Source: Parapedobacter tibetensis
GTDB taxonomy: Bacteria; Bacteroidota; Bacteroidia; Sphingobacteriales; Sphingobacteriaceae
Direction: 5' to 3'
Length of the DNA stretch: 64,000 bases
NCBI RefSeq assembly: GCF_024704835.1
Contig: NZ_JAMXBE010000002.1
Span: 434,001-498,000, forward strand
Below, in pieces: positions 39,313 to 49,403 of this stretch. The first letter of the stretch is position 1. Each line of letters opens with the position of its first letter. The notes under the pieces are model-generated. The model was given only the letters and a program-made list of their open reading frames with translations, was not told where the DNA came from and did no database searches. The position numbers and the translations under genes were made by a program.

Positions 39313-41469
39313 ATGAACTATAAATCCATAAATTATATATTGCCAATGAGCATGATTGTTGCCTCCTGTTCCTCCCCTGAATTTTCCCAGACACCATACG
39401 AATGGCCTGACGAAAAGCCTCCCATTGCATCCATTAAACCATACACTCGTGCGCTACATGGCGACACCGTAGTGGATAACTATTATTGGCTCAATGACTA
39501 CTTCAAAAAAGGACCGGATACGGCCTCCGTCATCGAATACCTCAACGCTGAGAATGCGTATACCGATGCGATGATGAAAAATACGGAAACATTGCAAGCC
39601 AAATTGTTTGATGAGATGAAGGGTCGTATCAAGGAACAAGATGAATCGGTACCCTATTTAAAGAATGGATACTATTATTATACGCGTACAGAGGAAGGTA
39701 AGCAGTATTACAAATTTTGTCGCAAAAAGGGTAGCCTTGATGCTGCTGAAGAGGTGCTCCTCGATGTAGATGCCATGGCTGAGGGCCATGCCTATTATGC
39801 AGTAGGGGGCTTTAATGTAAGCCCCGACAATAAATTTTTGGCATATGGAGTAGATACCGTATCGCGACGGGAATATACGATCCATGTGAAGAACCTGGAA
39901 ACAGGAGCATTGCTTACCGATGCCATATCCCGCACCACCGGAGGTTCGGTTTGGGCCAACGACAACAAAACCTTGTTTTACACCAGCAAAAACCCAGTGA
40001 CCTTGCTGACCGAGAAAATCATGCGGCACATATTGGGTTCAGACAGCAAAACAGATATCGTGGTGTACCATGAGGTGGACAACACCAATTACATTGGCGT
40101 GAATAAAGCCAAATCAGGCAAATTTATTTATATCTATTCCGGAGGCACACTTTCTTCGGAGACACGGTATTTGGATGCAAATAACCCGTTGGGTACATTT
40201 AAGGTGTTCCAGCCTCGTATTAACGATGTATTATATAATGTAACGGCGCTGGAGGATCGATTCCTTATCGTGACCAATCAAGATGCCAAAAACTTCAAGT
40301 TGATGGAATGCCCCTTTGATAATACAGGGCTGGAACATTGGAAAGAGGTGATTCCTCACCGCGAAGATGTGCTGTTGGAAGGTGTAGATGAGTTTAAGGA
40401 CTTCTTGGTCATTTCTGAACGGAAAAATGGCCTTGCGCAGTTGGCTATTCGCCACCTGAGAGACGGGAAGGAACATTATTTGGATTTCGGTGAGGAAGCC
40501 TACGCAGCTTATACTTCTACCAACGCTGAATACGAGACATCCATATTGCGCTATGGATATACTTCACTGACCACACCGTCCTCTACGTATGACTATGATA
40601 TGAATAGCCGTGAGAAAACGTTGATGAAACAGCAGGAAGTAGTAGGGGGGTATAACATTACAGACTATGTAACTAAACGTTTGTATGCCACGGCCAAAGA
40701 TGGAACGAAGGTGCCCATTTCATTAGTGTACAAAAAAGGCTTCAAGCAGAATGGTAGTGCACCCTTACTTTTGTATGGTTACGGATCATACGGCAACTCG
40801 ATTGATACATGGTTCAGTTCCTCCCGATTAAGTCTACTCGACCGTGGTTTTGTGTTTGCTATTGCCCATATACGCGGAGGGCAAGAAATGGGCAGACAAT
40901 GGTATGAAGATGGGAAGATGATGAACAAAGTCAATACGTTTACAGATTTCATTGCCTGTGGGGAGTACTTGGTTGATGAGAAATATACCGCTCAACAACA
41001 TCTGTACGCCCAAGGTGGAAGTGCTGGAGGACTATTGATGGGTGCAGTTGTTAATATGGCGCCCAACTTATGGAACGGTATCATCGCTCAGGTACCCTTT
41101 GTTGATGTGGTAAATACGATGCTGGATGAAACTATTCCATTGACTACCAATGAATATGACGAATGGGGTAATCCCAATGACAAGGCAGCTTATGAGTATT
41201 TGAAAGGGTATTCACCTTATGAAAATATTGAAGCGAAGGCATATCCTAATATGTTGGTAACTACTGGACTTCATGATAGCCAGGTCCAGTATTTCGAGCC
41301 GGCCAAATGGGTGGCCAGGCTACGTGCCACCAAGACTGATGATAAGGTGTTGCTTCTGAAGACGGAAATGGACTACGGGCATGGAGGTGCGTCGGGGCGA
41401 TTTGACTACCTCAAGGAGATAGCACTGGAATATGCATTTTTATTTGCGCTGGAAGGGATAACGGATTAA
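39313..41469 (+). CDS. S9A prolyl oligopeptidase family (oligopeptidase B-like) lipoprotein
   Basis: 718 residues. It starts with a lipoprotein-type signal (SMIVASCSS). The seven-bladed propeller runs from about 80 to 430. The alpha/beta hydrolase domain has Ser570 in QGGSAGG, Asp655 in LHDSQVQYFEPAKW and His690 in DYGHGGASGR. The sequence around Ser and the YGYGSYG motif are those of oligopeptidase B, which cleaves short peptides after Arg or Lys. It stands alone and is followed by a two-way terminator. Confidence 0.95.
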   Translation: MNYKSINYILPMSMIVASCSSPEFSQTPYEWPDEKPPIASIKPYTRALHGDTVVDNYYWLNDYFKKGPDTASVIEYLNAENAYTDAMMKNTETLQAKLFDEMKGRIKEQDESVPYLKNGYYYYTRTEEGKQYYKFCRKKGSLDAAEEVLLDVDAMAEGHAYYAVGGFNVSPDNKFLAYGVDTVSRREYTIHVKNLETGALLTDAISRTTGGSVWANDNKTLFYTSKNPVTLLTEKIMRHILGSDSKTDIVVYHEVDNTNYIGVNKAKSGKFIYIYSGGTLSSETRYLDANNPLGTFKVFQPRINDVLYNVTALEDRFLIVTNQDAKNFKLMECPFDNTGLEHWKEVIPHREDVLLEGVDEFKDFLVISERKNGLAQLAIRHLRDGKEHYLDFGEEAYAAYTSTNAEYETSILRYGYTSLTTPSSTYDYDMNSREKTLMKQQEVVGGYNITDYVTKRLYATAKDGTKVPISLVYKKGFKQNGSAPLLLYGYGSYGNSIDTWFSSSRLSLLDRGFVFAIAHIRGGQEMGRQWYEDGKMMNKVNTFTDFIACGEYLVDEKYTAQQHLYAQGGSAGGLLMGAVVNMAPNLWNGIIAQVPFVDVVNTMLDETIPLTTNEYDEWGNPNDKAAYEYLKGYSPYENIEAKAYPNMLVTTGLHDSQVQYFEPAKWVARLRATKTDDKVLLLKTEMDYGHGGASGRFDYLKEIALEYAFLFALEGITD

Positions 41470-41493
41470 AAAAGAGATGGCCATCTCTTTTTT
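41468..41493. terminator. Bidirectional terminator between convergent genes
   Basis: A perfect 13-base palindrome, AAAAAAGAGATGG with its mirror image, has an A run on one side and a T run on the other. It can stop transcripts from both directions. It overlaps the stop region of the oligopeptidase gene and touches the stop of the convergent small membrane protein gene. Confidence 0.9.
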
Positions 41494-41711
41494 TAATGAC
41501 TTTTCTCCTGAGCTTCTTTTTTTCGTAGTTCGAAATTAGCTGCGGCATTACCGCTCGCCCGTATAGCTACATATGATGCTCCAATTGCCAGTAACAAGAC
41601 AATTATAATACCCCATATCCCTTTGCGCTTATCTTGCTTCATTAACCAAATAAGAAAAGCAATCAATGGGATTGCAAAAATTAAAATGAAAAACCAGCTT
41701 GCTCCAACCAT
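41493..41711 (-). CDS. Small membrane protein (72 aa)
   Basis: 72 residues with two hydrophobic segments (about 4-24, ASWFFILIFAIPLIAFLIWL, and 32-50, GIWGIIIVLLLAIGASYVAI) joined by a KQDKRKG turn. A charged C-terminal tail (ELRKKEAQEKSH) follows. Both ends are probably on the same side of the inner membrane. I do not recognise the family; similar small two-helix proteins are common and uncharacterised. Confidence 0.65.
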   Translation of the reverse strand: MVGASWFFILIFAIPLIAFLIWLMKQDKRKGIWGIIIVLLLAIGASYVAIRASGNAAANFELRKKEAQEKSH

Positions 41712-41840
41712 CTTTCTACGTGAATAAATTACACCTTCCTCGCTAGAAGGTAGCAGGCAAAGGTCGGAAGAAAACCTGCGGTATCCAAATATGGTTTTCC
41801 GAAAAGAAGAGGCAATTGATTGCGAAAAGCCTAGAAATTC

Positions 41841-41872
41841 TTGTGGAAAAGAAAAATTATTTCATACATTTG
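41841..41872 (+). promoter_or_regulatory. Predicted promoter of the second arginine cluster
   Basis: TTG at 41841-41843, a 21-base spacer, then TACATTTG at 41865-41872. The -7 box is a full match but the spacer is two bases longer than in the rplC promoter. The predicted start would leave a leader of about 300 bases before the GNAT gene. The small hairpin TACGGC-TTT-GCCGTA lies at 41883-41897. Confidence 0.6.
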
Positions 41873-41908
41873 TCCCTTACATTACGGCTTTGCCGTAGTA
41901 GATTAGCA

Positions 41909-42043
41909 ATGAACACAAAAAAATATATAACGGCATCTCCCTTATTATGCTTTCAGCATGACTTGAAGGGCTTTTTTTGTGAATTTTATATGACCGAAAG
42001 ACCGGTTATCCGGCTCCGACGACCCATATTGCCCCGGGCTTAA
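41909..42043 (+). CDS. Putative arginine-rich leader peptide (44 aa)
   Basis: A 44-codon ORF from the ATG at 41909 to the TAA at 42041. Its last 14 residues, ERPVIRLRRPILPRA without the leading E, contain five Arg codons (AGA, CGG, CGA, CGA, CGG). It lies between a promoter and the second arginine cluster, with a hairpin downstream. These are the features of ribosome-mediated attenuation, where stalling at Arg codons would change the downstream fold. No Shine-Dalgarno is obvious, which is normal in this phylum. It could equally be a chance ORF. Confidence 0.45.
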   Translation: MNTKKYITASPLLCFQHDLKGFFCEFYMTERPVIRLRRPILPRA

Positions 42044-42067
42044 AAATGGGGCGTCCCTCTCCAAAAC

Positions 42068-42112
42068 TGTACAACATGGAGTCCGATAGTTGTACATTAT
42101 CAGTAGTTTTTT
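42068..42112 (+). promoter_or_regulatory. Hairpin with downstream T run: possible attenuator or operator
   Basis: TGTACAAC (42068-42075) pairs perfectly with GTTGTACA (42089-42096). A six-T run is at 42107-42112, ten bases after the stem, which is farther than in a classic terminator. Upstream, CTCC (42059-42062) could instead pair with GGAG (42078-42081) in the loop, and GCCCC (42031-42035) with GGGGC (42048-42052) across the end of the leader ORF. Alternatively the palindrome is a protein-binding operator. Confidence 0.45.
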
Positions 42113-42184
42113 AACGTTTTATAGTATCACTAAAACACAACTTATTAGGTTGATTGTTTTCAATTTTTGGGGTCGTATATTCCA

Positions 42185-42892
42185 ATGGAACTTTCAGATT
42201 TCGTAATTATTCCAGCAGGTGCACACCATATAGGTTACGCACAGCAAATTTGTGACGAGATGGCCGAATCGGCCAAAGCCCGAGGGACCGGCATTGCCCG
42301 CCGTAGCCCGGAGTACGTGGCAAATAAAATGAAAGAGGGTAAAGCCGTGATTGCCTTGCACCGCGATGGCACATGGGCTGGTTTTTGCTACATCGAAACA
42401 TGGAGCCATGGGGACTTTGTAGCCAACTCGGGATTAGTCGTCAGCCCCAAATTTCGTAAAGCGGGGTTGGCCAAGGCCATAAAAAAGCGTATCTTCGACC
42501 TTTCCCGGGAAAAGTACCCGAAGGCTAAGATTTTTGGCCTCACTACAGGACTGGCTGTGATGAAAATCAATTCGGATTTGGGATACGAACCAGTAACCTA
42601 TTCGGAGCTTACCCAAGATGAGGAATTCTGGAAAGGTTGCCAAAGTTGCGTAAACTATGATATCCTTACCATGAAAGAACGCAAAAACTGTATGTGTACA
42701 GCGATGTTGTGGGATCCCGTGGAAAAGGAAAAGGAGTTGCGTGAGCGGATAGAGATGAAAGCCAAAGCGAAGGAGCGGTTGAAGCAAATCACCAAGAAAT
42801 CATCGCTTTTGAAACGTATCGAAGCCAAACTATGGAAATCTACCAAAAAGATGGTTACGACCATTATCACAAGATATCCAAAGCCTATTTGA
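42185..42892 (+). CDS. GNAT acyltransferase, candidate glutamate N-acyltransferase (argA role)
   Basis: 235 residues from the ATG at 42185. The acetyl-CoA fold shows AGFCYIETWSHGDFVANSGL, VVSPKFRKAGLAKAIKKRIF and NSDLGYEPVTYSEL. A four-Cys set (Cys152, Cys155, Cys169, Cys171: CQSC and CMC) sits near residue 160, perhaps a metal site. A basic helix-rich tail follows. It is 67 bases before argG, and Bacteroidota arginine clusters often carry a GNAT in this place, so I infer it acylates glutamate (acetyl or succinyl). It is not related to classical two-domain ArgA. Confidence 0.75.
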   Translation: MELSDFVIIPAGAHHIGYAQQICDEMAESAKARGTGIARRSPEYVANKMKEGKAVIALHRDGTWAGFCYIETWSHGDFVANSGLVVSPKFRKAGLAKAIKKRIFDLSREKYPKAKIFGLTTGLAVMKINSDLGYEPVTYSELTQDEEFWKGCQSCVNYDILTMKERKNCMCTAMLWDPVEKEKELRERIEMKAKAKERLKQITKKSSLLKRIEAKLWKSTKKMVTTIITRYPKPI

Positions 42893-42959: not shown

Positions 42960-44144
42960 ATGAAAAAAGTCGTATTAGCATTTAGCGGAGGATTGGACAC
43001 CTCATTTTGTTGCATTTATCTATCAAAGGATTTGGGATTGGAAGTCCATTCGGTTATCGTCAATACCGGAGGATTTTCGGATGAAGAACTTGCGGAAATC
43101 GAAAAACGGGCCTATGCATTGGGTGTCAAATCGCATGCTGTTGTAGATGAAACCCAAAACTATTACCATAGTAGTATCAAATACCTCATCTTCGGCAATG
43201 TATTGAAGAATGCAACCTATCCGCTATCGGTGAGTGCCGAACGGGTGAGCCAAGCCACGGCGATTGCCGATTATGCGAAGAAAATCGATGCAACTTATGT
43301 GGCTCACGGGAGCACGGGAGCTGGCAATGATCAGGTGCGGTTTGATATGATATTCAATACGCTTATCCCCGGAGTAGAAATTATTACCCCCATCCGCGAT
43401 CTTAAGTTGAGCCGCGAAGCCGAAATCGAATACTTGCACAAGCACGGCGTTGAATTCAATGCCGAAAAAGCCAAATATTCTATCAACAAAGGAATCTGGG
43501 GGACATCCGTAGGGGGAAAAGAAACATTGACCTCGCATGAAACACTCCCTGAGGAAGCATGGCCTACGCCTGCTACCTCCACAATCCCCCGCCGTATCAC
43601 CATCGATTTCGAAAAGGGAGAGCCCGCAGCATTGGATGGCAATAGGATCGGCCCGGTGCAAGTGATACAGGAACTACAAGCCATTGCTCAGCCGTATGGC
43701 ATTGGCCGTGATATCCATGTGGGCGATACCATCATCGGTATCAAGGGCCGAGTGGGTTTTGAAGCGGCCGCACCCCTTATCATCATCAAGGCACATCATA
43801 CGTTGGAAAAACATACACTCACCAAATGGCAGTTGAGCTGGAAGGATCAATTAGCTGCATTTTATGGCAATTGGATGCATGAGGGGCAGATGCATGATCC
43901 GGTGATGCGCGATATCGAAGCGTTTTTGCAAAGCGCGCAACAAACCGTAACGGGCAAAGTCTTCGTGGAATTGAATCCATACCGATTCCACATCATTGGT
44001 ATCGAATCTGAGCACGATCTGATGTCCAATGCATTTGGCAGCTATGGCGAAATGAACAATGCCTGGACAGGAGATGATGTGAAGGGCTTCTCCAAAATAT
44101 TTGGTAACCAAACGATGATTTGGCATAAGGTAAACGGAAAATAG
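42960..44144 (+). CDS. argG: Argininosuccinate synthase
   Basis: 394 residues. The ATP-binding loop is KKVVLAFSGGLDTSFCCIYL, followed by VAHGSTGAGNDQVRFD and the conserved NKGIWGTSVGG. It joins citrulline and aspartate with ATP. argC follows after 45 bases. argH, the next enzyme, is not in the window. Confidence 0.97.
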   Translation: MKKVVLAFSGGLDTSFCCIYLSKDLGLEVHSVIVNTGGFSDEELAEIEKRAYALGVKSHAVVDETQNYYHSSIKYLIFGNVLKNATYPLSVSAERVSQATAIADYAKKIDATYVAHGSTGAGNDQVRFDMIFNTLIPGVEIITPIRDLKLSREAEIEYLHKHGVEFNAEKAKYSINKGIWGTSVGGKETLTSHETLPEEAWPTPATSTIPRRITIDFEKGEPAALDGNRIGPVQVIQELQAIAQPYGIGRDIHVGDTIIGIKGRVGFEAAAPLIIIKAHHTLEKHTLTKWQLSWKDQLAAFYGNWMHEGQMHDPVMRDIEAFLQSAQQTVTGKVFVELNPYRFHIIGIESEHDLMSNAFGSYGEMNNAWTGDDVKGFSKIFGNQTMIWHKVNGK

Positions 44145-44189: not shown

Positions 44190-45209
44190 ATGACAAAAAT
44201 AAAGGCAGGCATTATCGGTTCAGCGGGTTATACGGGGGGCGAATTATTACGGATACTTATTCATCATCCGCAAGTTGAAATCGTGTTTGCCAATAGTGGC
44301 AGTAATGCCGGCAATAAGCTATCAGACGTACATACCGATTTATTGGGTGATACGGACCTAACGTTTACAGCTAGCATGTCTGATCATATTGATGTACTTT
44401 TTCTTTGTGTTGGCCATGGCGATGCGCGGAAGTTTTTGGACGCCAATGGTATAGCGCCCCATGTGAAAATTATCGATTTATCGCAGGACTATAGGCTAAA
44501 AGCAAATACCACTTACCAAAACAAGTCATTTGTATACGGCCTACCCGAATTGCAACGAGAAGCCATCCAGTCAGCACATTACATCGCTAACCCCGGCTGT
44601 TTCGCCACAGGAATCCAATTGGCACTATTGCCTTTGGCCGCCAAGGGGCTCCTTCCCAATGAAATCCACATCAATGCCACCACGGGCTCCACAGGAGCCG
44701 GACAGAAGCCATCGGCCACCTCGCACTTCAGTTGGCGCAGTAACAACTTGTCGGTTTATAAGGCGTTTGAACACCAGCATTTGCAGGAAATCAGTGAATC
44801 GCTAGATCAATTGCAACCGGGTTTCTTACCCGATAATGAAGGAACCCTACTGCAACGGGCCATGGAGCGCATCAACATCATTCCCCAACGGGGAAGTTTC
44901 CCGAGGGGTATTCTATCTACCATTTATATGGATAGTGACTTGAGTGAAGGTGAGGCATATGCACAGTACGAGGCATATTATGCATCACATCCTTTTACCC
45001 ACATCAGCAAAGCGAATATCGATTTGAAGCAAGTGGTTAATACGAATAAATGCATTATCCATTTGGAAAAACATGGTAATAAACTGTTTATCAACAGCAT
45101 CATCGACAACCTGCTCAAAGGGGCGAGCGGTCAAGCCGTTCAGAATATGAACCTGTTGTTTGGGGTGAAAGAAACTGCTGGGTTGAAGTTGAAAAGCGTA
45201 GGTTTTTAG
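44190..45209 (+). CDS. argC: N-acylglutamyl-phosphate reductase
   Basis: 339 residues. The Rossmann motif is AGIIGSAGYTGGELLRILIH. The catalytic Cys is in HYIANPGCFATGIQLALLPL, and the His in PQRGSFPRGILSTIYM and neighbours fits the family. It reduces N-acylglutamyl phosphate to the semialdehyde used by ArgD. It is last in the second arginine cluster and converges on hemL with 16 bases between stops. Confidence 0.97.
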   Translation: MTKIKAGIIGSAGYTGGELLRILIHHPQVEIVFANSGSNAGNKLSDVHTDLLGDTDLTFTASMSDHIDVLFLCVGHGDARKFLDANGIAPHVKIIDLSQDYRLKANTTYQNKSFVYGLPELQREAIQSAHYIANPGCFATGIQLALLPLAAKGLLPNEIHINATTGSTGAGQKPSATSHFSWRSNNLSVYKAFEHQHLQEISESLDQLQPGFLPDNEGTLLQRAMERINIIPQRGSFPRGILSTIYMDSDLSEGEAYAQYEAYYASHPFTHISKANIDLKQVVNTNKCIIHLEKHGNKLFINSIIDNLLKGASGQAVQNMNLLFGVKETAGLKLKSVGF

Positions 45210-45225: not shown

Positions 45226-46545
45226 TTAACCAAACACTACTTCCAAGCTCTCAAAGATAGCCTGCTGGGCTTTTTCCAATTCGACTTTATTATGGGCGGC
45301 TGATATAAATCCGACCTCATAACCCGATGGGCCGAGGTAAACTCCACGGTTGAGTAGTTCGCGATGGAATACTTTGTAATAGTCCATGCTACTATGGTCG
45401 ATATCACGCGCTGCCCTAATGTTTTCTTGGTTGGTAAACGCAAACCAAAAGATGGATCCAATGTGGAAGACCTTGAATGTGTAGTTTTTAGCCGCAACAA
45501 ATTCTTGGATGGCCACTACAAATTCTTCTGCCTTTGTGTTGAGGTTTTTATAGAAGTTGTTGCTCCTGAGCTCAGTCAGCTGTGCTATCCCTGCTGCCAT
45601 GGCCACCGGGTTGCCCGATAAGGTTCCAGCTTGATACACACCTCCATCCGGAGAGATATGGCCCATCAGTTCAGCGGACGCACCATAAGCCCCCACGGGC
45701 ATGCCACCGCCGATGATTTTGCCATAGGTTATGATATCGGGCTGCACCCCATAATGAGCTGCGGCACCCTCAAACCCCATTCGAAAACCGGTAATTACTT
45801 CATCAAAGATCAGCAGCGCCTTATTTTGTTTTGTGATATCCCTCAAGAAATGGATATACGCTTCCTCTTGGATAAGCAATCCATTATTGGCAGGTACCCC
45901 TTCAATAATCACGGCGGCAATTTGCCGGTTGAATTGGGTAAAGGCTGTTTCTACGGCTTTCCGGTCATTGAGTGGAATAACAATAGTTTCATCGGCAAAC
46001 GATTTGGGTACGCCGGCTGATGAGGTTTCACCAAAGGTGACCAGCCCCGACCCAGCTTTGACCAACAACGAATCTGAATGCCCGTGATAACAACCCTCGA
46101 ATTTGATGATTTTATCGCGACCGGTATATCCCCTTGCCAGCCGGATGGCTGACATCACGGCTTCAGTGCCCGAGCTAACGAACCGGATTTTTTCGAGATA
46201 CTTGTTATGTTCAAGGATGAGTTCGGCAAGTTCGTTTTCTAAAGCGGTGGGCGCGCCGAAACTTAATCCTCTTTCCAAGGTTTGGGTTACTTTTTCACGA
46301 ATCTTAGCATGGTTGTGCCCCAATATCAGCGGTCCCCATGAACAACAGAAATCGATGAATTGGTTTCCATCGGCATCCCAGATAAAACAACCGTCGCCGC
46401 GCTCGATAAATAATGGGGTGCCATATACGGATTTGAATGCCCGCACAGGGGAGTTTACGCCTCCCGGGAAATACTGCTTCGCTTTTTTATATAACTCGGC
46501 TGATTTCTCACGGGAAATATCGCTTTTTTTGGATGTATTCAACAT
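45226..46545 (-). CDS. hemL: Glutamate-1-semialdehyde 2,1-aminomutase
   Basis: 439 residues. The PLP Lys is in YGKIIGGGMPVGAYG, with FVSSGTEAVMSAIRLARGYT and FDEVITGFRMGF around the cofactor. It forms 5-aminolevulinate, the C5-pathway product. It is last of four haem genes; the stop-to-start gap from hemB is 33 bases. Confidence 0.97.
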   Translation of the reverse strand: MLNTSKKSDISREKSAELYKKAKQYFPGGVNSPVRAFKSVYGTPLFIERGDGCFIWDADGNQFIDFCCSWGPLILGHNHAKIREKVTQTLERGLSFGAPTALENELAELILEHNKYLEKIRFVSSGTEAVMSAIRLARGYTGRDKIIKFEGCYHGHSDSLLVKAGSGLVTFGETSSAGVPKSFADETIVIPLNDRKAVETAFTQFNRQIAAVIIEGVPANNGLLIQEEAYIHFLRDITKQNKALLIFDEVITGFRMGFEGAAAHYGVQPDIITYGKIIGGGMPVGAYGASAELMGHISPDGGVYQAGTLSGNPVAMAAGIAQLTELRSNNFYKNLNTKAEEFVVAIQEFVAAKNYTFKVFHIGSIFWFAFTNQENIRAARDIDHSSMDYYKVFHRELLNRGVYLGPSGYEVGFISAAHNKVELEKAQQAIFESLEVVFG

Positions 46546-46578
46546 GTGTAATATAAATATGTCGGTATTCCGATTCAG

Positions 46579-47562
46579 TTAGAGCCACTTCTTGGCCAAC
46601 ACTTCCTTGGCATGGTAGGTGAGGATGACCGAGGCCCCTGCCCGTCGGATGCCCATGAGTACTTCCATCGTGGCGCGTTGCTCATCCAGCCAGCCGTTGC
46701 GTGCCGATGCTTTAATCATGGCATATTCACCACTTACATTATATGCCGCGATGGGCAGGTCAAAATTGTCCTTCAGTAGTTTAACCACATCCAAATACGG
46801 CAAAGCGGGTTTTACCATCAGGAAATCTGCCCCTTCCTGCGTATCCAATTCGGCCTCTATCAGCGCTTCCCGTTGATTTGTCGGGTTCATTTGGTAGGTC
46901 TTTTTATCCCCATGCTTCGGTGCCGAATTGAGCGCATCGCGGAATGGCCCATAGAATGCACTGGCATACTTGGCCGTGTATGACATCAGTGATATGTTCG
47001 TAAACCCGTTTTCATCCAATTTATTGCGGATATAACCGATTCGTCCGTCCATCATGTCTGAAGGTGCGATGATATCTGCACCTGCCTGCGCATGTGCCAA
47101 AGCCATCATGGCCAAGATCTCCAAAGTTTCATCATTAAGGATTTCGCCATTTTCCACGATACCATCGTGGCCGTCACTGCTATAGGGATCCATGGCTACG
47201 TCGGTTACCACACAGGCCTCTGGAAAACGGCTTTTTACTTCGCTAATGGTTCTCAAGTAAAGGCTGCCCTCCTTGGTGCTTTCTGAGGCATGTTTATCCT
47301 TTAGCGACTCTTCAATGTTGGGGAATAAATCAAACGCACGGAGCCCGAGATTCATGCAACTTTCCACTTCCCGTAACAGGTTGTCTATTGAATAGCGGTA
47401 GATCCCGGGCATGGAAGATACCGCTGTTTTAATGTTGCTACCTTCAACAATAAATATGGGGAAAATCAGGTTGGCGGCATTCAGATGGGTTTCCTGCACC
47501 ATATCACGTATTACCGCGGATTTGCGGTTCCTTCTTGGTCTTTTCAACATACCTTCAATCAT
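46579..47562 (-). CDS. hemB: Porphobilinogen synthase (ALA dehydratase)
   Basis: 327 residues from the ATG at 47562; the ATG at 47550 (MLKRPRRNRKS) matches homologue starts better. The two Schiff-base Lys are in SYTAKYASAFYGPFRDA and FLMVKPALPYLD. The region after TDVAMDPYSSDGHDG lacks the Cys-rich zinc site, so it is of the magnesium-type metal pattern. It condenses two ALA. Confidence 0.96.
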   Translation of the reverse strand: MIEGMLKRPRRNRKSAVIRDMVQETHLNAANLIFPIFIVEGSNIKTAVSSMPGIYRYSIDNLLREVESCMNLGLRAFDLFPNIEESLKDKHASESTKEGSLYLRTISEVKSRFPEACVVTDVAMDPYSSDGHDGIVENGEILNDETLEILAMMALAHAQAGADIIAPSDMMDGRIGYIRNKLDENGFTNISLMSYTAKYASAFYGPFRDALNSAPKHGDKKTYQMNPTNQREALIEAELDTQEGADFLMVKPALPYLDVVKLLKDNFDLPIAAYNVSGEYAMIKASARNGWLDEQRATMEVLMGIRRAGASVILTYHAKEVLAKKWL

Positions 47563-47622
47563 ATTTTACGACACCGCAAATCCATATTCATTTGCTCAAT
47601 CCATGTCATCCGTGTTCTATAA

Positions 47623-49260
47623 TTAATAATCCAACCCAAAGACGGCTTCAGCCAATCCAATTTCATCCGGTGAATAAGGGAGAGTATAAGTAAGACCTAA
47701 TTCCTCAATCTTCTGGCCCGTGGAGTGCCCAATGCAGATGATTTTTTGGCCAGGATCAACCAAGTTGTCCACAAAGTAAGCCTCTACATTAGTAGGGCTA
47801 GTGAAGATAAGCACATCTGCGTTGGATTTGGAGACATTGGTGTCAATACGGGTTTGGTAAACAGGCAGATTGATTATTTTTGTATCTCCAGTAAGTGATT
47901 TCTGGATGGTTTCCAGTGAATCTTTCGCTCTGGGAATCAAAACCGTTGTCCCAGATGCTATCTTTGCAAATTCAGCAGCGATTTTTTCCATATTGATGCC
48001 TAGCCTTTCGCCGGAGAAATCTGGGGCATGGTCATGTTGTCTTAGCATTTCTTCGGATCCCCTGCCGATTACGGCAAATTTTGTCCGTTTGCTGAGACGA
48101 GGTTCAAGTTTAAAGAAATTTTCAATACCATTCTTGCTGCCGAAAAATATCCAATCAACATATTTTAGAATATATGGGTCTAATTTATTGATTATCGAGT
48201 ATATTCGAATTAGTGAGCGCCCTTCCACGGCGATACCATGTTTCGCCATAGCCCTGTGAAAGTAGCTGCTTTCCGATACATCACGTGTGATGAAGACGTG
48301 TGTAGGCAGTTTCCTGTCCTTATCATATTTGCTTACAATTTTCTCAACCAAACCATCTGTATGGTCGGCTGAAACGTATAAACGGTCAGGGAACTGCTCA
48401 TCGGTATCCGCCTTGGATGTCCACACTTCATACTTGCCGTCTTGCTTGCGGCAATAACAACCCAACGGAGCGTGACATCCACCATCGAAAAGCTGGAGGA
48501 CTTTGCGTTCGATGGCGAGGGTATCGGCCACATCGGCATCGTTTATTGTTTGGAGAACGGTATACAGCTCTTGGTCATTATCTCTGATTTGAACAGCCAG
48601 CACCCCTTGGGCAGGAGCCGGAATAATTTCCACTGGGGGCAATTCCTCCACATGGAAATCGCTTAAATCTGCGCCTATCCGTGTGATCCCCGCTTTGGCC
48701 AACATGATGGCATCATAGTTTTCGTCACGGAGCTTTTCAATACGAGTCATCACATTGCCTCGTAGGTCGTCAAACTCAAGATCGGGGCGTATAGCTAGCA
48801 ATTGGGCTTTTCGGCGGTTAGACGAAGTTCCTACAACAGCGTTGTGCTTAAGTGAAAGCCTTTTTTTTAAATCCACACAGTCTTTGTGAATAATCAGTAG
48901 CTCAGAAGCATCTTCACGAGTAGTCACCGCTGCGATGGTCAGGCCTGGCGGATTAGCTGTAGGAAGGTCTTTGTGGGAATGGACAGCCAGGTCAACCGTC
49001 CCATTCAACAGCTCCTCTTCCAATTCCTTGGTGAAAAACCCTTTCCCTTCCAGTTTGTCCAACCTCAGGTGTTGCACGATGTCACCTTGGGTCTTGATAA
49101 TTTTAAGTTCAGCTTCAATGCCGATACCGGCCAATTTGCTTTTGATGTAATTGGCCTGCCATAGGGCCAATTCACTGCCACGCGTACCGATAACAAGCGT
49201 TCGGTCCACTTTATGTGTGCTTTTTGCGACAGTTTTAGTCAAAGGTTCCTCTATTAGCAT
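47623..49260 (-). CDS. hemCD: HemC-HemD fusion: hydroxymethylbilane synthase + uroporphyrinogen-III synthase
   Basis: 545 residues from the ATG at 49260. The first 310 residues are HemC: IGTRGSELALWQANYIKSKL, GTSSNRRKAQL, LRGNV and the dipyrromethane cofactor Cys262 in FDGGCHAPLG. From about 315 to the end comes a HemD domain: HVFITRDVSESSYFHR, FAVIGRGSEEML, VLIPRAKDSLETIQKSL and a late ADVLIFTSPTNVEAYF. The fusion would pass the unstable hydroxymethylbilane directly to ring closure. It lies between hemA and hemB. Confidence 0.95.
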   Translation of the reverse strand: MLIEEPLTKTVAKSTHKVDRTLVIGTRGSELALWQANYIKSKLAGIGIEAELKIIKTQGDIVQHLRLDKLEGKGFFTKELEEELLNGTVDLAVHSHKDLPTANPPGLTIAAVTTREDASELLIIHKDCVDLKKRLSLKHNAVVGTSSNRRKAQLLAIRPDLEFDDLRGNVMTRIEKLRDENYDAIMLAKAGITRIGADLSDFHVEELPPVEIIPAPAQGVLAVQIRDNDQELYTVLQTINDADVADTLAIERKVLQLFDGGCHAPLGCYCRKQDGKYEVWTSKADTDEQFPDRLYVSADHTDGLVEKIVSKYDKDRKLPTHVFITRDVSESSYFHRAMAKHGIAVEGRSLIRIYSIINKLDPYILKYVDWIFFGSKNGIENFFKLEPRLSKRTKFAVIGRGSEEMLRQHDHAPDFSGERLGINMEKIAAEFAKIASGTTVLIPRAKDSLETIQKSLTGDTKIINLPVYQTRIDTNVSKSNADVLIFTSPTNVEAYFVDNLVDPGQKIICIGHSTGQKIEELGLTYTLPYSPDEIGLAEAVFGLDY

Positions 49261-49403
49261 GAGCAAATTTAACGAATAAAAGTATTACCCGAACGGATAT
49301 GTTAAAGAATTGTACGGTATAGAAGGATATTTATATGATTTTCCGATTGGAAAACCGCTATTAATTAGTGCCCGCCTATATACTCAACGACGCTGAAAAG
49401 ACA

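Follow-up and report, generated by a model that had tools for sequence, protein, structure and literature searches.

We propose that the short open reading frame (ORF) upstream of the GNAT, argG and argC genes of Parapedobacter tibetensis is an arginine-sensing leader peptide gene that acts by translational attenuation, a reading to which we assign a probability of roughly two in three. The frame lies in a window of 64,000 nucleotides, the whole stretch of DNA that was analysed. Comparison with related sequences supplies a conserved peptide, a conserved choice of codons, conserved and covarying helices and a promoter box, together with the lack of a conserved terminator and of an ArgR match; what we infer is that ribosomes stall when arginine is low, which sign the response has, and that initiation is the step controlled. 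The pairing of most weight is probably the one that joins the Arg-Arg-Pro codons of the leader to the bases preceding the GNAT start, here called P0. The locus is laid out as follows:

41841-41872, forward strand: promoter, a TTG and a Bacteroidota -7 type box, TACATTTG, at 41865-41872 (from the sequence)
41909-42043, forward strand: leader peptide gene, 44 codons and a stop, MNTKKYITASPLLCFQHDLKGFFCEFYMTERPVIRLRRPILPRA (kept in 8 of 8 named Parapedobacter; pN/pS)
42017-42022, forward strand: invariant CGA CGA pair, Arg-9 and Arg-8 when the stop is counted as -1 (75 Arg-Arg leaders)
42185-42892, forward strand: GNAT acetyltransferase gene, the first past the leader (Pfam PF00583)
42960-44144, forward strand: argG, argininosuccinate synthase (Pfam; NCBIfam TIGR00032 above cut-off)
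44190-45209, forward strand: argC, N-acetyl-gamma-glutamyl-phosphate reductase (NCBIfam TIGR01850 above cut-off)

An earlier note on this DNA, made from the letters alone, had placed a possible arginine leader region before GNAT-argG-argC, and this was borne out, the ORF at 41909-42043 being a conserved leader ahead of these genes. GNAT was named by Pfam alone, and argG and argC by NCBIfam above its cut-offs. The GNAT gene is present in all nine genomes of the window's genus, and the closest named relatives of its protein belong to eight Parapedobacter species (among the best 80 of 291 related loci). GNAT is followed by argG in 55 of the 56 alignment loci described below, window included, the exception (L024) sitting near a contig end; this order was checked in the alignment loci and not in the distant loci of the class. 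The prolyl oligopeptidase gene of the window has at its end a palindromic hairpin, AAAAAAGAGATGGCCATCTCTTTTTTT (41468-41494), which looks like a two-way terminator that would shield the leader from upstream transcription. On the minus strand, 41493-41711 form a divergent ORF of 72 residues; its product has a hydrophobic stretch and matches no Pfam family, and similar sequence stands at the same position in several Parapedobacter loci. Past the end of argC, the minus-strand neighbours at 45226-49266 are convergent to it; from their translations we take them to be haem synthesis genes (glutamate-1-semialdehyde aminotransferase, porphobilinogen synthase and hydroxymethylbilane synthase).

Judged by comparison with its relatives, the ORF at 41909-42043 is a real, conserved leader peptide under selection. 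The earlier note had described it as 44 codons with five Arg among the last 14 residues, with coordinates that are exact. The same frame can also be read from a TTG further 5', at 41816 (75 aa); the conserved start is the ATG at 41909, which is also the sole start of the frame downstream of the promoter box. This ATG, the 44 codons and the RRPILPRA-stop end are kept in all eight named Parapedobacter relatives. L002, L006 and L078 have the reading frame open beyond this ATG on its 5' side, with starts that in L002 and L078 precede the promoter box. Most other Sphingobacteriaceae loci have the leader with a drifted front. Its conserved end reads P-[VI]-L-R-[FL]-RRPILPRA-stop in most Parapedobacter and Sphingobacterium, RRPIMPRA in Olivibacter, RRPMLPRA in bacterium A37T11, RRRL[FY][IM]PRV in most Mucilaginibacter and KHRRSFRPRA in one Pedobacter. 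The length is exactly 44 codons from ATG in 62 of the 64 RRP leaders and 44 codons from GTG in L012, a start codon because of which our scripts overlooked that leader. An Arg-Arg leader is present in 74 of the best 80 of 291 related loci, and in L012 as well; L052, L053, L055, L060 and L066 (Flavobacteriaceae by their titles) have none, the loose pattern having matched an Arg-Ala end only. What an attenuator calls for, a translatable short ORF ahead of the operon with Arg codons near its end, is thus found here. A degenerate leader motif is matched in 60 of 151 family genomes, in a single copy each, and its reversed form matches once; the other 91 genomes are without a match, and L002 goes unmatched because its stop is TAG. 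The stricter motif occurs once in the window's genome, and the peptide has no match in Pfam or NCBIfam.

Across the 62 aligned 44-codon leaders, pN/pS is 0.81 for codons 2-28 vs 0.19 for the last 13 residues. At Pro-14, Leu-12 and Arg-11 the pS values are 0.67, 1.01 and 0.74 and the pN values 0.09, 0.18 and 0.08, that is, codon changes are free and residue changes are rare (Arg-11 is replaced by Lys in L054 and L093 and by Asn in L009). Because these three residues are constrained and lie 5' of every helix, selection acts on the peptide itself, beyond what codon choice and RNA pairing require; Arg-9 and Arg-8 are conserved as codons too. Selection on residues other than Arg suggests that the nascent peptide also matters.

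The promoter proposed in the earlier note, a TTG (41841-41843), 21 bases and TACATTTG (41865-41872), is present in the sequence as described. Of 62 leaders, 60 have a TAnnTTTG box, a type which we take to be the promoter consensus of the phylum Bacteroidota, starting 31-47 nt (once 76 nt) ahead of their ATG; shuffling predicts 2.3 leaders with one. A TTG in the -33 region accompanies it in 18 of these 60.

The Arg-Arg pair is conserved down to its codons. CGA stands at position -9 in all 75 Arg-Arg leaders, window included, and at -8 in 67 of them, the remaining eight having CGA CGA AGG at -10 to -8. The codons of Arg-11 (CGG, CGA, CGC, AGA, AGG) and Arg-3 (CGG, CGA, AGA, AGG) are mixed, and CGA makes up 71 of the 652 Arg codons (10.9%) across 31 window ORFs. 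That the codon CGA is invariant, and not merely the arginine, points to tRNA supply. Where no UCG anticodon exists, CGA is decoded by the inosine form of the ACG anticodon, which is a slow pairing. The tRNA search of the window's genome gave 43 hits, 42 of them typed, with Arg anticodons UCU, ACG, CCG and CCU; no UCG anticodon occurs among the 42, though a tRNA-Arg(UCG) may have been missed, as one hit (36.9 bits) was not called by ARAGORN and the first pass scored 150 of 238 candidates. If UCG is indeed lacking, the CGA pair would be a sensitive gauge of charged tRNA-Arg.

The RNA from the control codons to the GNAT start contains the following helices:

42019-42025, forward strand: 5' arm of P0, ACGACCC, within the Arg-Arg-Pro codons, pairing with 42170-42176
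42170-42176, forward strand: 3' arm of P0, GGGTCGT, ending 8 nt before the GNAT ATG (GGTC core in 55 of 56 loci; folds)
42029-42054, forward strand: P1, a hairpin around the leader stop that pairs TTGCCCC (42029-42035) with GGGGCGT (42048-42054) (covariation)
42036-42040, forward strand: 5' strand of P4, GGGCT, in the P1 loop and the last Arg-Ala codons, pairing with 42080-42084
42068-42096, forward strand: P2, the hairpin of the earlier note, whose loop holds the 3' strand of P4, AGTCC (42080-42084) (conserved stem)
42132-42160, forward strand: P3, an A/U-rich hairpin, AAAACACAAC / GTTGATTGTTTT, then a short T run (folds; Parapedobacter alignment)

These were studied in an alignment (A2) of 56 distinct sequences out of the 64 RRP loci, L068, L069, L071, L072 and identical copies being left out. 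In it, conserved RNA structure overlaps the control codons: P1 and P4 covary, and 55 of the 56 loci have an arm of P0. In P1 the Leu-Pro codons are joined to bases past the leader stop; 97.4% of its cells are paired and three pairs show two-sided changes, the outermost pair being T-T in the window and in six others. Its arms read TTGCCCC with GGGGC in Parapedobacter, CTGCCTC:GAGGCAG in most Sphingobacterium, CTACCTC:GAGGTAG in the S. multivorum group and ATGCCC:GGGCAT in Olivibacter. P4 is a loop-loop pairing between P1 and P2, either GGGCT:AGTCC or GAGCT:AGCTC, with 96.1% of cells paired; its pair 30-103 is A-U in 31 sequences and G-C in 22. P2 contains the perfect 8-base inverted repeat seen in the earlier note, TGTACAAC and GTTGTACA at 42068-42075 and 42089-42096, and in 54 of 56 loci the P4 strand is enclosed by a stem of at least 5 pairs, vs 23.6 expected. 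The arms of P3 are found in 8 of 9 Parapedobacter sequences.

The alternative pairings that the earlier note had listed fared unequally. GCCCC (42031-42035) with GGGGC (42048-42052) is conserved with changes on both sides; CTCC with GGAG was rejected as a conserved pairing, both words occurring in only 3 of 9 Parapedobacter sequences; and the pairing of the Arg-Arg-Pro codons with the bases before GNAT (P0) was missing from its list. That note had also called for an alignment of relatives, and in ours the Arg codons and GCCCC:GGGGC are conserved and the front of the peptide drifts.

When P1 and P4 are taken together over the 56 sequences, 96.9% of cells are paired vs 91.8% in shuffles (0 of 500 reaching it), slid controls give 30.0-51.7%, and two-sided changes number 48 vs 15.6 in shuffles (again 0 of 500), both the paired cells and the change counts being inflated by relatedness. 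The number of pairs with two-sided changes (4 vs 3.7) and the number of pair types (12 vs 11.9) show no excess over shuffles. On a tree, P1 shows four double changes, one of which leads to the non-pair T-T, and pair 30-103 of P4 and the variable pair of P0 show about two apiece; these counts are approximate, as basal nodes are poorly supported and some non-pair states are reconstructed at the L010 branch. Natural deletions also occur. L004 is without P3 and keeps the leader, P1, P2 and P0; L029 is without P2 and P4; both keep P0 and P1. Helices P0 to P4 are mutually compatible and no competing helix was identified among them. No Rfam family matched the window or 18 related loci at its gathering score, the best sub-threshold match in 41850-42200 being snoR32_R81 (E 1.1). 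A stop-codon hairpin like P1 reached p<=0.05 in 3 of 25 blindly called distant leaders of the class (combined P 0.011) and gave P 0.24 in five distant leaders added by eye; its presence through the whole class is only suggested by these values.

P0 is the helix that links the leader to the GNAT start. Its partner core, GGTC, starts 12-15 nt 5' of the GNAT ATG in 55 of the 56 distinct loci. The four core pairs are invariant. In 53 of these 55 loci the adjoining position is C-G, T-A or T-G, and of the outer pairs one forms in 46 and the other in 20 of the 55; only one pair varies with compensation. Taken singly, P0 is non-significant in most loci. The helix was not found in L024 and L204. We then have 20 extra loci, of which 16 were counted as new, the repeats, recognised by contigs of equal length, being L196/L012, L197/L010, L198/L069 and L212/L038; in L197 the script chose the wrong start codon for the P0 test. 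Among new loci of Parapedobacter, Sphingobacterium, Olivibacter or A37T11 type, P0 is found in 3 of 4 (single-locus stem p 0.011, 0.092 and 0.291), and among those of Pedobacter or Mucilaginibacter type, a label assigned from the leader motif, in 0 of 12, though the leader and CGA CGA are kept there. P0 has been seen only in Parapedobacter, Sphingobacterium, Olivibacter and A37T11. In L069/L198 (Hufsiella) a GACCGTTT:AAACGGTT pairing is ambiguous, its arm being shared with a local hairpin.

Minimum-energy folds of the window, L038 and L056, three distant species, each contain P0, P1, P2 and a P3-like hairpin. The z values of fold stability are -1.13, -1.39 and -4.31, respectively, so that only L056 is unusually stable. 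To model a waiting ribosome, pairing was forbidden under its footprint. With the footprint at CGA-9, the mean cost of opening GNAT -18..+6 falls from 10.3 to 6.8 kcal/mol; it is 6.7 with the footprint at Arg-11, 7.0 at CGA-8, 7.1 at Arg-3, 8.4 at the stop codon and 10.2 at an early position. In 52 of the 56 loci a footprint at CGA-9 saves more than 1 kcal/mol, the window's own gain being small (1.1 kcal/mol). By these modelled energies, the Arg codons -11 to -3 therefore sit where a waiting ribosome would break P0. A GNAT start closed by a pairing that a stalled ribosome would open, as expected of a translational attenuator, is thus found in the model (P0 arm in 55 of 56).

The earlier note had instead read hairpin 42068-42096 and the six-T run at 42107-42112 as a terminator. 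The T run is present in the sequence and belongs to no conserved terminator; a terminator role for the two was rejected, as only 8 of 62 leaders have a terminator-like site between the leader stop and GNAT and no terminator was called on the plus strand of 41470-42200. That note's wider claim, an Arg leader on which a stalled ribosome alters the fold, agrees with the conservation of peptide and pairing and fails in its terminator part. If control were transcriptional, a stalled ribosome would prevent a terminator hairpin and the polymerase would continue into GNAT. P3 and its T run do resemble a weak terminator in Parapedobacter, the 8 leaders exceed the 2.4 expected, some relatives have hairpins with T runs directly 5' of GNAT (AAAGACTAAAAACGTAGTCTTTTTT in L068, and others), and the excerpted text of a paper on F. 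psychrophilum reports strong clues for leader-peptide attenuation ahead of amino-acid operons (PMC9723704). However, no intrinsic terminator is conserved between leader and GNAT: 54 of the 62 leaders are without such a site, five of the eight sites are one hairpin of one Sphingobacterium group, and the region of the window itself yields none. L004 lacks P3 and keeps the leader, P1, P2 and P0; P0 itself stops 8 nt short of the ATG and is followed by no T run; and P3 is nested in P0, hence the two do not exclude each other. We consider transcriptional attenuation unlikely. Six Pedobacter-/Daejeonella-type loci (L068, L072, L093, L195, L200 and L201) have two successive hairpins with T runs in the interval between leader and GNAT, for example AAAGACTA..TAGTCTTTTTT and TCCG..CGGATTTT. 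These are possibly terminators, in which case the downstream half of the switch would differ by lineage. Pedobacter-/Mucilaginibacter-type loci have other hairpins before GNAT, some with T runs, and may use termination.

Translational attenuation takes its target from the same observations: P0 lies just before the GNAT start with no T run and terminators are not conserved, therefore initiation is the likely point of control. According to the excerpted text of PMC6847099, this is a phylum without Shine-Dalgarno sequences, in which initiation is tuned by mRNA structure. Transcription would begin just past TACATTTG, and ribosomes would translate the 44-codon leader. With plentiful arginine they would pass CGA CGA and the last Arg codon, finish at the stop and depart; the freed RNA would form P1, P2, the loop pairing between them and P0, and the latter, by binding the Arg-Arg-Pro codons to the bases just 5' of the GNAT start, would close that start. 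With scarce arginine the charged tRNA for CGA would be depleted and a ribosome would pause within codons -11 to -3. Its footprint would cover the 5' arm of P0, leaving the GNAT start open, and GNAT, with argG and argC, would be translated. The competitor of P0 would then be the ribosome itself, in place of a rival helix. The nascent chain may strengthen the pause, as suggested by the selection on Pro-14 and Leu-12.

A start that opens when arginine is short fits a biosynthetic operon, and the opposite sign, wrong for such an operon, would follow if excess arginine caused the stall. This bears on the alternative that the conserved end of the peptide responds, inside the ribosome tunnel, to free arginine or to a signal linked to arginine, and halts translation at Arg-Arg-Pro or the stop codon. 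Stalling of this kind is known from the arrest peptides TnaC and SpeFL and from the fungal arginine attenuator peptide. The selection on Pro-14 and Leu-12, where codons vary and residues rarely do (as at Arg-11), is not predicted by plain starvation sensing and counts against translational attenuation in its simple form; the distant leaders retain hydrophobic residues ahead of their stop-adjacent Arg, and the length is constant at 44 codons from ATG in nearly all RRP leaders and from GTG in L012. Yet a stall at high arginine would open P0 and let the product raise its own synthesis, and the invariance of the CGA codon, beyond that of Arg, indicates tRNA supply, so that nascent-chain arrest as the explanation seems to us rather improbable. 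An arginine riboswitch, to which the ORF is incidental, would also suit a fold of several helices in which two loops pair and one arm shuts a start region. We hold this to be very unlikely, since residues 5' of every helix are under selection, the promoter box is positioned for the ORF, distant relatives with a different RNA keep an Arg-tailed ORF at the same place, and Rfam gave no match. That the ORF encodes a functional small protein with no regulatory link, as its conserved length and end might suggest, is scarcely credible given the near-neutral drift of codons 2-28, the lack of a Pfam or NCBIfam family, and the single copy of both the strict motif (in the window's genome) and the looser one (in 60 family genomes).

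In the class, GNAT is present in 59 of 158 genomes drawn. We fetched 58 loci and set apart five with argR beside GNAT, which left 53, including three of the window's family (L092-L094). An Arg-tailed ORF (15-70 codons, at least 3 Arg in the last 13 residues, right place) precedes GNAT in 28 of the 53, vs 2.2 expected from dinucleotide shuffles and 4 on the reverse strand; seven of these hits (L102, L106, L111, L123, L130, L135 and L148) may be fortuitous, being short or in an odd position. Distant leaders end in PVRPVFCIRR, SRVPFFPRR, RRFYRSRI or RRRYFFRV, with Arg near the stop and hydrophobic residues before. The word CCTACG is often found 3' of distant leaders: L099, L103, L114, L115, L117 and L124 carry it between the leader stop and GNAT, usually in the form CCTACG[CT]GG and, as it seems, within the loop of a hairpin. 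ArgR (PF01316) was matched neither in the window's genome nor in 12 other genomes of the family; the inverted repeat was considered as an ArgR operator, and the window's genome is without a PF01316 match. Matches to PF01316 occur in 6 of 67 genomes, in five of which the gene is upstream of and beside GNAT, and in these five genomes no Arg-tailed ORF was found. Hence argR and the leader appear to replace one another at one operon position, five genomes being few.

The trp, his and leu leaders control amino-acid operons by ribosome-mediated transcription attenuation. As in those attenuators (PMC1183508, in its excerpted text), a short leader ORF with codons for the product amino acid near its end stands ahead of a biosynthetic operon, and the position of a ribosome would set the state of the RNA. 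Unlike them, the present element has no conserved intrinsic terminator, its control codons form one strand of a helix shutting off the first gene's start, and residues other than Arg are selected too. In translational attenuation of the ermC type, stalling on a leader peptide opens a downstream start region and the signal is a macrolide. Here a leader stall would likewise open the start region of the downstream gene, but the signal would be shortage of an amino acid, the target is a biosynthetic operon, and the closing helix is long-range, built on leader codons and provided with a loop-loop contact. The excerpted text on S. aureus rbfL describes a short upstream ORF whose Arg codons sense arginine restriction and which acts on translation initiation; in that system the ribosome, once paused, occludes the start region of rbf and a biofilm regulator is repressed, whereas here the pause would open the start of genes for arginine synthesis (PMC13009471). 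With TnaC (PMC8429421, in part), SpeFL and the fungal arginine attenuator peptide the leader shares residues conserved up to the stop and a link to an amino acid; unlike in these, codon identity is conserved too and the expected sign would be opposite. ArgR, whose gene occupies the same place before GNAT in five class genomes, differs from the leader in being a DNA-binding protein. Within the open PubMed Central text, and among the matches listed, we found no paper on an arginine leader in Bacteroidota or on arginine control without ArgR there; the F. psychrophilum transcriptome paper reports leader-peptide attenuation upstream of amino-acid operons, and its main text mentions arginine once, in connection with cyanophycin (PMC9723704).

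Leader-peptide attenuation is thus a known kind of control; what would be new are control codons that close the next start, the loop-loop lock and the selection on the peptide. A leader built in this way would be a compact design fitting a phylum without Shine-Dalgarno sequences (PMC6847099, in part), and the apparent exchange of argR and leader at the same operon position would be a case of one type of regulator replacing another. It is possible, and we advance it tentatively, that a so far undescribed Bacteroidia element stands in for ArgR, in which the nascent chain and CGA CGA jointly sense arginine and the same bases form the loop-locked, start-closing fold; this would be the equivalent, in bacteria, of the fungal arginine attenuator peptide. 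If so, one short sequence would serve as control codons, arrest peptide and sequestering helix together. The element may also offer an arginine-responsive switch for the genetics of Bacteroidota.
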